Source: a virus
Length of the DNA: 36,980 nucleotides
IMG/VR virus record: IMGVR_UViG_3300046680_000467
Span: 1 to 36,980 of that record
Reading direction: 5' to 3' (one strand)
Shown: in pieces, positions 4,814 through 28,649 of the stretch
How positions within the stretch are numbered: position 1 is the first letter of the stretch
How the letters are laid out: every line of letters starts with the position of its first letter
Notes under the pieces: model-generated
Seen by the model: only the letters and a program-made list of their open reading frames with translations
Told to the model about the DNA's origin: nothing
Database searches by the model: none
Translations under genes and position numbers: made by a program

Positions 4814-5236
4814 TCAGGATGAAGAGGTGTCGTCGTCAGCCGCGCTGCTTTTATGACGATTTTGCTCGTAGACTTTATTTTCGTGGTCCCAAAACATCCC
4901 CTCGTCTTGCGCTTCGGGATAGGAATCCAAAAGCGAAGCGCGCAACCAAGGCGGCATCCGAGGGTGCAAAATGCCACGGTAAATCCACTCGGAAGAAATC
5001 CGAAACTGCGCACAGAGTCGGTACAGATGCATCAGCTTCGGTAACTGTTTGCCGATTTCCCAGCGACTGTAGATGAACGGCGTGACGCCTATCCGCTTTG
5101 CCCACGTCGCCGCGCGATGATCTACGCCCGGCTCGTGCCTCATATACGCTTCTCGCGTCGATCGCAGACGCTGCCCATAGCCCTGCATCAGGTGGCCATT
5201 TCGAAGTGCGTCCGTTTGCTTCTTACTCTTGGCCAT
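4814..5236 (-). CDS. XRE-family repressor (CI-like)
   Basis: This 140-residue protein has a single helix-turn-helix domain (about 19-90; recognition region around ATWAKRIGVTPFIYSRWE, residues 43-60), followed by an acidic tail ending DDDTSSS. It lacks a LexA/CI-type self-cleavage peptidase domain, so induction would need an antirepressor or another signal. It probably represses both early operons by binding the ACTTGCA palindromes that flank it. A minus-strand promoter (5318-5347) fits its expression. The ATG at 5236 has only a weak ribosome-binding site. A start at 5188 would trim 16 basic residues and keep the domain. Cro and CI roles could in principle be swapped. Confidence 0.8.
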   Translation of the reverse strand: MAKSKKQTDALRNGHLMQGYGQRLRSTREAYMRHEPGVDHRAATWAKRIGVTPFIYSRWEIGKQLPKLMHLYRLCAQFRISSEWIYRGILHPRMPPWLRASLLDSYPEAQDEGMFWDHENKVYEQNRHKSSAADDDTSSS

Positions 5237-15703: not shown

Positions 15704-16846
15704 ATGTCAGAATCCACCAGCACAGGCGCAGGAACTCCAGCCGCACCGGCACAGAGCGGGGACGCGTCAGCACCCGCCAGCGCTCCGCCGGCTACATCAC
15801 AGCCGGGGATCAGCGTCAGCGAAGCAGCGCGGCTCCTCAACCAGCAGCGCAAGGCCGCCGCGCCACAGGGAACGCCACCGGCCCCAGCCGCCGTGGAGCC
15901 GGCCCGCAAGCCCTCGCCGAACGAAGTGGCCGCGCAGGCTGCCGCAGCGGCAAAGCCAGGGGAAGCGGCGGCCAAGGCCCCGCCAGCGCCGAAGGGTGCG
16001 CCAGAGGCGGCGGACGGACTGAGCGCGCTCGACCGGGCGCTCGGGGTGCCGGGAACGCCCGGGGACGCGCCCGCGGCCGACACCGCCGCCTCTATCGAGA
16101 TCGAGGGACAGCGCTACACCCAGGCTCAGATCGCCGCGGCAGTGCGGCAAGCCGCCGACTACACCCAGAAGACGCAGGCGCTCGCCGAGGAGCGCCGGCA
16201 GAATGAGGAGGGACGCCGCCAGCTCCAGGCGCAGCAGCAGGCTCTGGCAGCGGTGCTGCCGTATATTCAGCCCGAACTGAGCAAGCTGCACGAGCTGGTC
16301 GGAGCGCAGGCACAGAAGCCCGACATCGGCCTGATGCAGAGCGACCCGCAGCGGTATTTCACCGAGCTGCACCGCTACGAGCAGGTCCGCGCCGAGCAGG
16401 AACGCCTGGGCGGCCTGACGCGCATTCAGGCCGAGGCGGCGGAACGGGCGATGGCACAGCAGGTGGCGGCCGGCAACGAGCAGCTGGCGCGGGAGTTTCC
16501 GTTCTGGGCGGACGCGAAGGAACGCGCGGCCGCGCAGCAGCAAATCGTGGAGTGGGCGACCAACAAGGGCGGCTTCACCCGGGACGAACTGCGCGGATTG
16601 TCGGACGCCCGCGCATTGAAATTGATGATGAAGGCGATGCAGTTCGACAAGTGGGTGTCGGGGACGCGGACCTCCGCGCCGGCGCAGACAACGCGCGCAC
16701 CAGTGCGCGGAACAGCCCCGCCGCCGGCCCCCACCGAGCGCGTCAGCGTCGCCAACGAGGCGTTTGAAGCGAAGCCTAGCGTCCGCAGCGGAGCCGCGCT
16801 GCTGGCCGCCAGGCGCGCCAATATGAACGGCGCCGGGCGGCGTTAG
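15704..16846 (+). CDS. Scaffolding protein
   Basis: This 380-residue protein sits just before the capsid module. A long Ala/Pro-rich acidic N-terminus (1-120) precedes a helical, charged centre (IEGQRYTQAQIAAAVRQA near 130; AEERRQNEEGRRQLQAQQQA near 160). A conserved C-terminal part follows, including PFWADAKERAAAQQQIVEWA and a basic end. This order is typical of podovirus scaffolds, which guide capsid assembly and leave before maturation. Major capsid normally follows at once; here an inverted three-gene cassette intervenes. Its TAG overlaps the stop of the convergent minus-strand gene. Confidence 0.75.
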   Translation: MSESTSTGAGTPAAPAQSGDASAPASAPPATSQPGISVSEAARLLNQQRKAAAPQGTPPAPAAVEPARKPSPNEVAAQAAAAAKPGEAAAKAPPAPKGAPEAADGLSALDRALGVPGTPGDAPAADTAASIEIEGQRYTQAQIAAAVRQAADYTQKTQALAEERRQNEEGRRQLQAQQQALAAVLPYIQPELSKLHELVGAQAQKPDIGLMQSDPQRYFTELHRYEQVRAEQERLGGLTRIQAEAAERAMAQQVAAGNEQLAREFPFWADAKERAAAQQQIVEWATNKGGFTRDELRGLSDARALKLMMKAMQFDKWVSGTRTSAPAQTTRAPVRGTAPPPAPTERVSVANEAFEAKPSVRSGAALLAARRANMNGAGRR

Positions 16847-17220
16847 CCTTTCGGGGCCGGCACCGGGTACGCCTTCACCGTCCATTCCGTAACGCCTGGC
16901 CGATGCACCGCCACGATCAGCTGCGATTCGAGATTGGGCGGGAGCGGCGGGGGCGGCTGCGGTGGCCACATCTCGGGAGGGACCGGGACGCCGTTGTCTA
17001 GCCGCCCACCACCACCGATAGCGCCGGGCAGCCATGGGTGGCCTCCGCCCTCTTCAATCCCAAAGCCGGGATCGACCGGACCACCCTGCCAGCCCGGAGG
17101 CCCGGCATCGATGTGCCCGCCGCCCAGAGGAGTGATCATGGCGAGGTGGGTCGAGCTGCCGCCCTTTGGCTGAGCGCCGGCACCGAGGATGGTGATGGTT
17201 GCGAGGAAGGGTGATGTCAT
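16843..17220 (-). CDS. Gly/Pro-rich protein of the inverted cassette
   Basis: This 125-residue protein has a short hydrophobic start (MTSPFLATITILG), a Gly/Pro-rich middle with GGGHPWLPGAIGGGG and PPEMWPPQPPPPLPP, and a beta-like C-terminus (SQLIVAVHRPGVTEWTVKAY). GGAG lies 7 nt before the ATG, within the end of the upstream micro-protein gene. Similar proline-rich small proteins occur in alphaproteobacterial phages, without known function. It could be a surface or capsid-decorating accessory. It is the last gene of the minus-strand cassette. Confidence 0.62.
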   Translation of the reverse strand: MTSPFLATITILGAGAQPKGGSSTHLAMITPLGGGHIDAGPPGWQGGPVDPGFGIEEGGGHPWLPGAIGGGGRLDNGVPVPPEMWPPQPPPPLPPNLESQLIVAVHRPGVTEWTVKAYPVPAPKG

Positions 17221-17230
17221 CAGTAAACTC

Positions 17231-17377
17231 CTACGGTATTATCCAGAACACGGCGACCAGGACCAGCACTATCCCCAGCACGGTTAGGCCGCCAATCAAT
17301 CCGGCGAAAGCCAATTCCCGGCGGTGGGCACGTATCGCCCGCGCCAGCCGCTGCGTCTCCTCGTGGTAGGGCAGCAA
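17231..17377 (-). CDS. Single-pass membrane micro-protein (48 aa)
   Basis: The frame opens with TTG directly after the TAA of the PEP-CTERM gene and ends 10 nt before the next gene. The product has a charged amphipathic start (LPYHEETQRLARAIRAHRRE) and one strong transmembrane helix (LAFAGLIGGLTVLGIVLVLV) ending FWIIP. No ribosome-binding site is evident, so it would depend on coupling. The clean charge-then-helix layout supports a real gene, with moderate confidence. Confidence 0.45.
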   Translation of the reverse strand: MLPYHEETQRLARAIRAHRRELAFAGLIGGLTVLGIVLVLVAVFWIIP

Positions 17378-18037
17378 TTAGCTGCTGAGGCGACGCACCC
17401 AGCCCAGCCCCAGCAGGCCCATACCGAGGAGGAGCAACGACGCGGGCTCAGGCACCGAAGCGGCGTCAGCGTCGCCAGTGAAGAACCCATTAAACGGGCC
17501 GATTGTGCCGGGGCCGCCGGTCGTATCCAGCGTCAGCGGCGGCGTGACAGAGGACAGCGCCAGCGTGAATGATGCCGGCGGGGCCGTCGCCAGCCCGATG
17601 CTGCTGGTGAGCGTCAGTGTGTCCGGCGGCGAGGCGATGTTGACGCTGAGCTGGTCACCGCCGATCGAGCCAAACGCGGCGTCGGTGAACGTGCCCGAGA
17701 GATAGTTGGTGCCGCCGCAGCCCGCCGCGGAGGTGATGCAGAAGCTGCCCGCATAGTGCTGGAGCACAGCGGTGCCACCGACCGGAATGGCCGTGTCGGT
17801 AGAGTCCGCGCTCAGCGACATAAACGCGCCCGTCGGCGTGCTGAGCCCCAACTCGATCTGCGTGATCGTGATCGGGTCGGCGGTCACCGCGAGGTGCGTC
17901 GAGGTCCCCGGCACGGTCTCGGTCGCCGTCAGCCCGGTGCTGGCTCCGGTCTCGCCGAACCCGATGATCTGGATGGCGTTGGCACTGGCCAGCGGCAGCC
18001 CGGCAAGAACGGTGGCGGCGAGAAACAGACGGCGCAT
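17378..18037 (-). CDS. Secreted PEP-CTERM sorting-domain protein
   Basis: The protein has 219 residues. The start at 18037 is preferred to 18106 because GGGGAG lies 8 nt upstream and it yields a classic signal peptide (MRRLFLAATVLAGLPLASANA). The mature part is Thr/Ser/Gly-rich and beta-like, with Cys residues near 98-106 that could form a disulphide. The C-terminus is a textbook PEP-CTERM tripartite signal: VPEPASLLLLG, a hydrophobic helix, then VRR. Host exosortase normally recognises and processes this tag for surface or exopolysaccharide-linked delivery. It is not a virion gene by position or strand, so lysogenic conversion of the host surface is likely. I know of no standard phage family with this tag. 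Confidence 0.85.
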   Translation of the reverse strand: MRRLFLAATVLAGLPLASANAIQIIGFGETGASTGLTATETVPGTSTHLAVTADPITITQIELGLSTPTGAFMSLSADSTDTAIPVGGTAVLQHYAGSFCITSAAGCGGTNYLSGTFTDAAFGSIGGDQLSVNIASPPDTLTLTSSIGLATAPPASFTLALSSVTPPLTLDTTGGPGTIGPFNGFFTGDADAASVPEPASLLLLGMGLLGLGWVRRLSS

Positions 18038-18094
18038 TGCGGTCACTCCCCGGTTGGTCGCGGAAACTATAGCGCACCGCTCATGCGCCGTCGT

Positions 18095-18113
18095 GACAAT
18101 TGACAAAATTGTC
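18095..18113. promoter_or_regulatory. Operator-like palindrome between cassette and capsid gene
   Basis: GACAATT-GACAA-AATTGTC has perfect 7-bp arms and a 5-bp spacer, the same geometry as the repressor operators but a different sequence. It lies 58 bp upstream of the PEP-CTERM start. It contains TTGACA (18100-18105) pointing towards the capsid gene, though the best -10 (TCTAAT, 18119-18124) is only 13 bp away. It is a plausible regulator site for the cassette. Confidence 0.55.
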
Positions 18114-18144
18114 GGTCGTCTAATAGTCTAGACAGGCCGCCCGA

Positions 18145-18221
18145 AGGAGTGCTTGCACCCACTGGAGGGCGGGACGTGCCGTCGCTTGGCTGACGCCGGC
18201 CCCAGGAGTGCTTGCACCCAC
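18145..18221 (+). repeat. Two 18-bp direct repeats in the capsid leader
   Basis: AGGAGTGCTTGCACCCAC occurs at 18145-18162 and again at 18204-18221, 59 bp apart. Each copy contains GTGC-TT-GCAC, which could form a small hairpin; the second is further bracketed by CCAGG/CCTGG. They lie in the 206 bp between the palindrome at 18095-18113 and the major capsid start codon. They could be protein-binding sites in DNA or RNA, or remnants of the cassette insertion. Confidence 0.7.
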
Positions 18222-18319
18222 CTGGCCACCCGCCGCCATCCCATTGCGAAACCAATCCAATCGGTTTCACCGCATGAGGCGCGCCACAGCGCGCGCCCGT
18301 GCTGCAATGGAGATACGGC

Positions 18320-19303
18320 ATGGCCGTTGGCGCACAGGGTGCAGCACCCGCTGGAACGTATGTCGAGACAGCGGCCGTCGGCGTTAAGGAAGACCTCGCC
18401 GACATCATCTACAGGATCGATCCAGATGAAACGCCGCTGGTTAGCGCGTGCTCGCGCGTGGGCGCCAGCCAGGTGCTCACCGAGTGGTTGATCCAGGAGC
18501 TGAACGCCGCCGCCGATAACGCCCAGCCCGAGGGCTTCACGGCCGTCATGCAGGCGGTGCTGAAGCCAGTGCGGCTGAACAACGTCTGCCAGATCATCGC
18601 GCGGACCGTCGGCGTGTCTAACACGCTGCGCGTGGTCGATATGGCCGGCGGGGAAGACGAATATAATCGTCAGCTGATCCTGCGCGGCATGGAGGTCAAG
18701 CGCGACCTCGAGCTGGCGGTGACGTCGCCGCTGGTGCGGACGATTACGGATCCGCGGCATATGTCGGGCCTCCCCTGCTACACCATCAATGGCTCGCGCG
18801 GGGCTGGCGCCGGCGTCATGCCCATCGGCGACGGTTCCAACGCCGGCACCACGGGGACGCTGCGGGATCTCGACCTCGCCACCGTCAATGCCGCCGTGCA
18901 GCAGTGCTGGCAGGCCGGCGGCAAGCCGACGTTGGCGATTATGAGCGGGAATATTAAGAATTATTTCAGCACGCTCTCGCAGGGCGGCACCGCTAACCCG
19001 ATCGTGGCCCAGAACATCCAGTCAGTTACCAGCCGCGAAGGCGTCACCATCATGGGTGCGGTGGACGTGTACCGCACCAACTTCGGAGCGCTGCAGCTCG
19101 CCCCCGATCGCTTCTGCCCGCTGCACCAAATCCTGATCGTGTCGCCGGACTATCTGGAAATCGCGCCGCTGCCAGAACGCGACATGATCCAGATCGACTT
19201 CGCCACCACGGGCGACAATTCGCAGGGTGGCGTGATTTTTGAGGGTACGGTGCGGCCCACGGCTCCGAAAGCGCACGCGACCATTTTCGATTTGAATCAG
19301 TAA
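18320..19303 (+). CDS. Major capsid protein, SU10 type
   Basis: This 327-residue protein forms the icosahedral shell. The start at 18320 has GGAG about 8 nt upstream. The N-terminal landmark KEDLADIIYRIDPDETPLVS and the following VLTEWLIQEL are characteristic of the SU10-like (HK97-fold) capsid family, as are the later RDLELAVTSP and SREGVTIMGAVDVYRTNFG stretches. The length is typical for the family. The scaffold gene is 1.5 kb upstream, beyond the inverted cassette. Confidence 0.88.
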   Translation: MAVGAQGAAPAGTYVETAAVGVKEDLADIIYRIDPDETPLVSACSRVGASQVLTEWLIQELNAAADNAQPEGFTAVMQAVLKPVRLNNVCQIIARTVGVSNTLRVVDMAGGEDEYNRQLILRGMEVKRDLELAVTSPLVRTITDPRHMSGLPCYTINGSRGAGAGVMPIGDGSNAGTTGTLRDLDLATVNAAVQQCWQAGGKPTLAIMSGNIKNYFSTLSQGGTANPIVAQNIQSVTSREGVTIMGAVDVYRTNFGALQLAPDRFCPLHQILIVSPDYLEIAPLPERDMIQIDFATTGDNSQGGVIFEGTVRPTAPKAHATIFDLNQ

Positions 19304-20881: not shown

Positions 20882-21325
20882 ATGCACATGACCAAAACAA
20901 TCCCCTGGCGTGATCGCATAATCCCGGAGCCAAATTCAGGCTGTCTCCTGTGGGAGGGAGTCTATACCGGTTCTGGCTACGGCCAGATTACACGCAACCG
21001 CAAGCACATCATGGTGCATCGCCTAGCATGGGAAGAGGAGCACGGCCCAATCCCGCCCGGACTTTCAGTGCTCCATCGTTGCGATGTCAAAGGCTGTGTG
21101 AATGTGGAACATCTATTTCTGGGCACGCACGCGGATAATATGCGCGACATGCTTGCCAAGGGGCGTCAAGGCGATACAGCAGCTCATTTCAGAGCGCTGA
21201 CGTATTGCAAGCATGGTCACCCCTTCACTACAGAAAACACGCGATATCGCCGCAACGGCTGTCGTCAGTGCCGCAAGTGTCATCGCATTAGAGCACTTCG
21301 CGCTTACCACGCAGGCGACGCCTAA
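20882..21325 (+). CDS. HNH endonuclease (freestanding, homing-type)
   Basis: This 147-residue protein has an HNH domain: VHRLAWEEEHGPIP (His near 46), then VLHRCDVKGCVNVEHLFLGT with the paired histidines and asparagine, and NMRDMLAKGR. A C-terminal zinc-finger-like cluster follows (YCKHGHPF; C-x2-C-x2-C with His near 134-141). Such genes cut at a target site in genomes lacking them and spread by repair. It lies between adaptor and tail genes and has its own promoter. The start is at 20882, or 20888 if leaderless. Its TAA overlaps the next ATG. Confidence 0.85.
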   Translation: MHMTKTIPWRDRIIPEPNSGCLLWEGVYTGSGYGQITRNRKHIMVHRLAWEEEHGPIPPGLSVLHRCDVKGCVNVEHLFLGTHADNMRDMLAKGRQGDTAAHFRALTYCKHGHPFTTENTRYRRNGCRQCRKCHRIRALRAYHAGDA

Positions 21326-27301: not shown

Positions 27302-27826
27302 TCAGATGCCAGCTAACGCCAGCTGTGGCGCGGTGCTGGTGCGGTTGCGCTCTAGGTATGCGATCAGCTTGCGAAGGTGCTGCACGTCGTCGTTTACCAT
27401 GCCTAGTGTAATGTTGCATTTCTCGCATAACCAGCCGCGGAAGTGCCCTTTCTGATGGCAATGATCGAACACAATCCGCCTTGTCGCACCGGAGCAGATA
27501 TCGCATCGGGTTGGCTTAGGTCGGCCGGCCAAAAGCTCGCGATTACGAAGATAGGTGGGTTCCGTGACGGCGCGCTTGGGTTTTATCTTTTTGTTGCTCT
27601 CTATCCATTGATCCGGATTGTCACGATGATATTGCCGTGCGTATTCACGACGTCTTGCTTGATGTTCAGGTTTTGCATCGATCTGTTTGCGGCGTTCTTT
27701 ATACGCATCGGCCCACGAGTGAACCTTATCCTTGTTGGCTTCACGCCACGCCTTCTGTTGTGCCGCAATCTTGGGGCGGTTGGCTTTGTAACGTGCGCGC
27801 CGGGCTTCAGTGTTTTTATATGGCAT
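27302..27826 (-). CDS. Endonuclease VII-type HNH nuclease, inverted
   Basis: This 174-residue protein starts at ATG 27826. A very basic helical N-terminus (RRARYKANRPKIAAQQKAWR onward) binds DNA. The C-terminal domain is a recombination endonuclease VII fold: CDICSG, then IVFDHCHQKGHFRGWLCEKC, then NITLGMVNDDVQHLRKLIAYL. Both C-x2-C pairs and the DHCH catalytic motif are intact. It lies against the direction of all tail genes, with a 19-bp gap to the collar gene and no gap to the previous one. An autonomous homing-type insertion is therefore more likely than a debranching enzyme of the phage itself. The longer frame upstream is rejected as antisense of the collar gene. Confidence 0.85.
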   Translation of the reverse strand: MPYKNTEARRARYKANRPKIAAQQKAWREANKDKVHSWADAYKERRKQIDAKPEHQARRREYARQYHRDNPDQWIESNKKIKPKRAVTEPTYLRNRELLAGRPKPTRCDICSGATRRIVFDHCHQKGHFRGWLCEKCNITLGMVNDDVQHLRKLIAYLERNRTSTAPQLALAGI

Positions 27827-27845
27827 TGGTTTTCCGGAGAGAAAA

Positions 27846-28649
27846 ATGCCTGACACGTATACACCGTTACTGGCCTTGGTGCTACCCGAGATAGGGGCAT
27901 CGAGGGACAGTTGGGGGTCAAAACTCAACGACAACTTCGCCGCGCTCGACGGCTTTGTGTCACAAGCCATGCCGATCGGGGCGGTGATCGATTTCGCGGG
28001 CGCCACCGCGCCGGCGGGCTGGCTCGTCTGCGACGGGCGCAACGTTTCCCGCACGACGTATTCTGATTTATGGGCCGCCATTGGCACCGCTTGGGGGGCG
28101 GGGGATGGCACCACCACGTTCCGGTTGCCCAACACGCCCGGGCGGGCATCGGTAGCGGCTGGCACCGTCACCGACAGCAACGGCAACCACGTCGTGTTCT
28201 CGCTCGGCCAGACCACCGGAGCGGTGCTGCAGACCATCCAGCAGACGCACCTGCCCAGCTACAATCTGACGGTTTCCACGACTGGGGCGCACACCCATGG
28301 GGGCCTCACGGGCGGCGCAGGCGCGCACAGCCACACGGTCGCAGTGCCCAATGCTTCGCCAGTGGCGGCGGTGACGCCCGGCGACCTGGGCGGTATCTGG
28401 TCAACGAATGCCGGCATGACGACCGTCGCCACCAGCGGGCAGGATCAGCATGTTCATACGGTCGCCAGCGACGGGAACCACACGCACACCGTAGCCCTCG
28501 GCGGTGGCGGGACCGCGCTCCCGGTGCTGTCGCCGGTGATCGTGTTCACCAAGATCATCTATGCGGGCAATCAGGCCACAACCACGGCGCTGATGGCGTC
28601 TGCACGGCCGCGACGCGAGCTGTCCGCACCGCTGCGTGGGAGCCACTGA
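27846..28649 (+). CDS. Tail collar domain protein with HxH motifs
   Basis: The protein has 267 residues; GGAGAG ends 4 nt before the ATG. The N-terminus (LPEIGASRDSWGSKLNDNFA) is fibre-like. The collar domain follows: MPIGAVIDFAGATAPAGWLV, CDGRNVSRTTYSDLWAAIG, then TTTFRLPNTPGR. The C-terminal half has four HxH motifs (HTH, HSH, HVH, HTH). In T4-like fibre tips such motifs coordinate metal ions along a trimer axis. It is probably a short tail fibre or a host-range tip protein. Confidence 0.82.
   Translation: MPDTYTPLLALVLPEIGASRDSWGSKLNDNFAALDGFVSQAMPIGAVIDFAGATAPAGWLVCDGRNVSRTTYSDLWAAIGTAWGAGDGTTTFRLPNTPGRASVAAGTVTDSNGNHVVFSLGQTTGAVLQTIQQTHLPSYNLTVSTTGAHTHGGLTGGAGAHSHTVAVPNASPVAAVTPGDLGGIWSTNAGMTTVATSGQDQHVHTVASDGNHTHTVALGGGGTALPVLSPVIVFTKIIYAGNQATTTALMASARPRRELSAPLRGSH

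Follow-up and report, generated by a model that had tools for sequence, protein, structure and literature searches.

Gene order of the cassette

The window, the whole stretch of DNA analysed here, is a linear IMG/VR virus record of 36,980 bases from a soil phage whose structural genes are of the SU10 type: portal (PF23899), scaffold (phrog_3927) and capsid (PF17236). Three consecutive open reading frames on the minus strand sit between the gene for the head scaffolding protein on the left (15704-16846, plus strand; phrog_3927, E 7.8e-25) and that for the SU10-type major capsid protein (MCP) on the right (18320-19303, plus strand; PF17236 SU10_MCP, E 5e-64). The lead gene (17378-18037, minus strand) encodes, from its ATG, a 219-aa protein made of a signal peptide, a mature domain and a PEP-CTERM tail. 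Directly after its stop codon comes the TTG start of a 48-aa micro-protein (17231-17377, minus strand), in which an LPYHxE motif is followed by a hydrophobic stretch, the one predicted helix. The third gene (16843-17220, minus strand) encodes a 125-aa Pro/Gly-rich protein (GP) lacking a signal peptide, and the stop codons of this gene and of the scaffold gene overlap. The ORF coordinates and the matches of the neighboring genes agree with the original prediction of a three-gene minus-strand cassette at this place. The accompanying view that scaffold and MCP genes are normally adjacent holds in part only: in all 72 loci in which both genes were found they are separated by at least a leader of about 208 bp, and about half of these gaps (208 to 1,476 bp long, median 377 bp) carry extra cargo.

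Is this arrangement real? Contig L003 spans scaffold, cassette and MCP contiguously at 96% DNA identity to the window, and contig L082 covers the portal through the PEP gene. Because these two contigs reproduce the junctions independently, the gene order is genuine and no artefact of assembly, and the idea of a chimeric bacterium-phage contig is rejected. The micro-protein has a counterpart in L003 (98%, tblastn), and in L007 and L143 homologs are recognizable by eye in the interval from the PEP gene to the GP gene. Elsewhere among the structural genes of the window lie an HNH_3 endonuclease gene (20882-21325, plus strand) and an endonuclease VII-like gene (27302-28237, minus strand).

Signals upstream of the PEP and capsid genes

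A conserved box, CGGTGCGCTATAG, lies about 40 nt upstream of the PEP start (18055-18080, minus strand) and is common to the window, L003 and L005. It is a possible -10 region of the cassette promoter, lacking a good -35 element; the scan for minus-strand sigma-70 promoters and terminators returned no match for the cassette. The capsid gene, on the other strand, has a sigma-70-like promoter, TTGACA-N16-AATAGT (18100-18127, plus strand), whose TTGAC is conserved in relatives. Behind it runs a conserved structured leader (18128-18319, plus strand) with a counterpart in about 40 relatives; a leader of about 200 bp is present in the scaffold-MCP gap of all relatives that were aligned. Two hairpins of the form GGAGTG-loop-CACCnACC (18146-18163 and 18205-18223, plus strand) are followed, just upstream of the capsid ATG, by a CCAUUGC/GCAAUGG stem (18241-18247/18304-18310, plus strand). 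All 41 sequences compared conserve these structures, and bases change in pairs, from UA to CG in 16 and from UA to AU in 4. The leader matched no Rfam family at the gathering cut-off; it is a candidate for a new cis-regulatory RNA of the phage capsid gene.

Sorting signals and domains of the PEP-CTERM protein

The sorting of PEP-CTERM proteins has been recognized since 2006, and many environmental bacteria encode dozens of substrates per genome; to our knowledge, functions have been assigned to few of them. The C-terminus of the phage protein, VPEPASLLLLGMGLLGLGWVRRLSS, scores 32.0 bits against PF07589 (curated cut-off 20.7) and 21.4 bits against TIGR02595 (curated cut-off 16). Since 14 control genomes yielded no PF07589 match over the cut-off, the match is not due to chance. 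The claim of a full exosortase signal has thus passed the comparison with the PEP-CTERM model on which it could have failed. At the other end, residues 1-21, MRRLFLAATVLAGLPLASANA, form a Sec-type signal peptide, assigned by inspection of the sequence: a basic start and a hydrophobic core precede an AxA-type site, with predicted cleavage at ASANA|IQ. The pattern is kept across the family alignment, in which Ala19 is invariant.

The mature domain (residues 22-192) is predicted to be all-beta and is followed by the PEP-CTERM tail (residues 194-217); an AlphaFold model with a mean pLDDT of 81 gives the all-beta domain these limits and places a helix near the C-terminus, at 199-218. What could this domain be? 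Without its tail the protein matches no NCBIfam model, the whole protein matches no PHROG, a search by sequence found no relative of solved structure, and Foldseek against the PDB and viral models gave no match with E below 0.001. The best VIA-align matches are beta-barrel cyclases of the AbyU/PloI4 type (Z 9.0, 3.8 A over 125 residues), closely followed by dirigent and OmpA-type barrels. The predicted fold suggests a small beta barrel, the matches being too weak to assign a function.

A phage family of PEP-CTERM proteins

Relatives of the 219-aa protein are encoded on 44 IMG/VR contigs, most of them matching along most of its length. An alignment of 28 representatives has an invariant core, LSGTF-DAAFG followed by PP, and for 27 of these proteins one or more PEP-CTERM models gave a match. 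The model of floc PepA (NF033554) is among the subfamily models matched most widely (26 of 28 members at E <= 0.01); homology to floc PepA itself was considered and rejected, as the window protein reaches 26.9 bits, far under the 80-bit cut-off, and the match disappears with the tail. A [P/x]EP-helix-basic tail is kept in 27 of the 28 members even though identity elsewhere falls to 42-50%: the motif is PEP in 24 and has a different first residue in three, and the remaining member (L119) is truncated. In L119 and L125 (5001-5570 in both) the family copy stops just before the PEP-CTERM tail and gives way to unrelated sequence; either the tail is dispensable in some cases or the copy is decaying. 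Pairwise dN/dS values of 0.07-0.28 across the family (0.10-0.28 between the window and L003, L084, L085 and L086) indicate purifying selection.

The genes around family members differ, with several terminase families, P22-like as well as SU10-like portals and a contractile tail sheath; to judge from these neighbors, the family is spread over unrelated phages. A single scan with two peptide patterns, confined to the family of the window (family A) and to one genome per species, found no relative in 84,980 bacterial and archaeal species genomes; nor were relatives found in 50,697 phage records or in 72,556 plasmids. The case for family A being restricted to viruses appears strong but not final, as the scan may have overlooked bacterial copies that are rare or diverged. 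The open literature searched, which leaves most subscription papers outside its scope, contains no earlier description of a phage PEP-CTERM family, apart from the TIGR03118 genes of hot-spring viruses discussed below.

Cassette mobility and cargo exchange

Close relatives of the window show that the cassette comes and goes. In L007 (MCP 93%) the scaffold-MCP gap is 208 bp long and lacks the cassette; in L004 (MCP 97%) an HNH gene takes its place. The minus-strand cassette can thus be classed, as had been proposed, as a moron-like phage accessory element. Plus-strand HNH endonuclease genes lie in this gap in L004, L011, L030 and L035, and their presence suggests homing as a route for cargo into and out of it. 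The gap looks like an insertion hotspot in L034 as well as in these four; in L023, L032, L036 and L043 GP genes occupy it on the minus strand, some together with a PEP gene and some alone.

The same genes also turn up elsewhere, and in new combinations. L007 carries the PEP-micro-GP order upstream of terL, on the plus strand, and the mature domain of its PEP-CTERM protein is unrelated to that of the window. L005 has the upstream region and signal peptide of the window, in the same place, joined to another mature domain, that of the L007 type; the stretch of DNA identity to the window starts at 17971, where residue 22 is encoded, just past the predicted signal-peptide cleavage site. Judged from such sequence comparisons, the cassette is mobile and phages exchange its mature domain. 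Within the phage lineage of the window, PEP-CTERM proteins that score over the cut-off occur in 8 of 31 records, and their mature domains are of several kinds. At least five domains unrelated by sequence can be told apart: A in the window; B in L005, L007 and L143; C in the second gene of L121; D in L130-L132; and E in L129. Phage isolates yielded no member of families B and C. In L086, L089, L097, L098, L100, L101, L121, L122 and L129, two PEP-CTERM genes that differ in sequence stand next to each other, and such pairs are also present on contigs L157-L159 and L161-L163.

What else accompanies the PEP gene? Of 34 PEP-family loci, 16 have a GP gene, identified with an HMM, no more than 2 kb away, and in 11 of these the distance is 140 bp at most; the two genes are mostly on the same strand. 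As this holds across unrelated phages, the PEP protein and GP travel together. The dN/dS of GP is 0.06-0.36. Members of the GP family (L023, L032, L036, L043, L090, L102, L111 and L123) have PDQGLPG-type repeats and a small conserved C-terminal stretch, GWRYIAIDPSL or TEWTVKAY; those tested matched neither Pfam nor PHROG. Small proteins with one or two helices (clusters 1 and 6) are found repeatedly near the family, as is a protein of 330-420 aa (QSIQAAIDAAAPGDTIDVAAGTY, cluster 2) with the look of a right-handed beta-helix, carried by L090, L097, L100, L108, L111, L114, L121 and L122; the cluster 2 member tested matched neither Pfam nor PHROG.

Host and lifestyle

Exosortase (PF09721) is missing from all 38 related virus records searched, which leaves any sorting to the host, a dependence that the original prediction had assumed. 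Given a protein family that recurs in many unrelated phages and was not found in the species genomes scanned, phages probably use the surface-sorting machinery of their hosts. Which hosts are these? Aligning the MCP to 84,980 species genomes found no prophage match, and the 17 loci searched contain no tRNA genes. The best relatives by TerL are uncultured Manatee Spring phages (53%) and Sinorhizobium phage phiM5 (51%); by MCP they are phage C72C1 (38%) and Bradyrhizobium phage ppBeUSDA76-2 (33%). Because these relatives are remote, they give only a weak hint that the host lineage may be Alphaproteobacteria. In C72C1 (L126; OQ984150.1, 20019-21220) the capsid is annotated as two halves with about 470 bases and small minus-strand ORFs between them, possibly an intron or an internal insertion.

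Four of 41 related records encode a tyrosine integrase, so part of the phage group may be temperate. A search for this enzyme (PF00589) in the window found none; a lysogen may therefore not exist, in which case exclusion would be limited to lytic growth. The surface change in lysogens and the superinfection block of the original prediction are possible but tentative proposals. A weak HTH_3 regulator match lies at 4814-5236.

What might the cassette do?

We favor, at a probability of roughly 55%, the reading that the cassette is a mobile moron and that its lead product is a phage-encoded exosortase substrate displayed on infected cells, whose surface it alters. The lead gene would give rise to a secreted protein with a phage-restricted all-beta domain, probably a barrel, which, to judge by its N terminus, the Sec machinery of the infected host would export; the PEP-CTERM helix at the other end would then anchor it in the inner membrane. 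Release and delivery to the surface by exosortase are established knowledge for this signal. Host exosortase probably processes the phage protein too: it would cut the anchored protein and sort it to the outer surface or into the exopolysaccharide. Once displayed, the protein would most likely change the surface of the infected cell to the benefit of the phage, by masking a receptor, blocking entry or altering the matrix, and different phages would swap the displayed domain. An exclusion or surface-modifying role for the cassette is a tentative proposal, with the odds somewhat against it. More tentative still is a broader picture: phages would keep a virus-restricted repertoire of secreted domains, five or more and unrelated to one another, which change partners at the signal-peptide boundary, pass between unrelated phages and give infected cells an exchangeable coat displayed by host exosortase.

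But does the protein leave the inner membrane at all? The main rival to surface display is a membrane-anchored entry block or lysis modifier: exported and left unsorted, the protein would face the periplasm from a helix serving as a plain anchor, and would block DNA entry or tune lysis together with the micro-protein. Phage exclusion at the inner membrane is established for P22 SieA (PMC10883804), and a one-helix micro-protein is part of this very cassette, with small helical proteins recurring near the family; yet a plain anchor needs no PEP or EP motif before its helix, and the motif persists in 27 of 28 diverged members. We regard this alternative as unlikely, though it is the strongest of those considered. 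Slightly weaker is the possibility that the target is the sorting system or exopolysaccharide matrix of the host and not other phages, with the protein serving as a competing substrate, loosening the matrix, or causing an aggregation that aids release or spread. PEP-CTERM proteins and exopolysaccharide are reported to be both required for Zoogloea flocs (Gao et al. 2018, cited in PMC12642866), and the presence in several phages of neighboring genes for at least two different PEP-CTERM proteins fits such a role; the mature domain without its tail, however, is unrelated to floc PepA.

Other PEP-CTERM proteins are known from bacterial genomes, which might point to a recently captured bacterial surface gene without phage function or to a bacterium-phage chimera; this idea is largely refuted and now very improbable, given the junctions common to L003 and L082 and a family that is not found in the bacterial genomes scanned, yet is spread among phages under purifying selection. 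Even less credible is a virion part, a head decoration or fiber encoded beside the capsid gene: for all its position between scaffold and capsid genes, the gene is on the opposite strand, does not occupy this gap in close relatives, has a different location in others, and specifies a Sec-type signal peptide and a C-terminal membrane helix.

If exosortase substrates are made by the phages themselves, the enzyme would be a host factor in infection; the diversity of PEP-CTERM surface proteins would have a possible reason, and phage exclusion proteins in Gram-negative soil bacteria would have a new anchoring route.

Comparison with known systems

The window protein resembles the bacterial substrates of PEP-CTERM/exosortase systems (EpsH, Xrt) in its signal peptide, PEP motif, hydrophobic helix and basic end. 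It differs from them in being phage-encoded and in having a mature domain outside the known PEP-CTERM subfamilies; moreover, its family was not found in species genomes and has no exosortase alongside. Exosortase-type tails on viral contigs do have a parallel: TIGR03118 proteins with an exosortase-interaction domain are encoded on viral contigs from Yellowstone hot springs (PMC11003980). These belong to another family and were reported as acquired cellular genes of unknown function; unlike for the family of the window, no virus restriction, cassette or mobility was reported for them (PMC11003980).

Among phage accessory genes, sieA of P22 (PMC10883804) likewise places its product in the host envelope, and so does the gene for the lipoprotein Ltp of Streptococcus phage TP-J34, whose product is exported there (PMC3952083). 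Exclusion is known for Ltp and SieA and would be a possible role of the window protein. The sequences are unrelated and the anchors differ, a lipoprotein or a multi-pass membrane anchor in these two and an exosortase tail in the window protein. By analogy, Ltp of phage TP-J34 may be its nearest functional counterpart.
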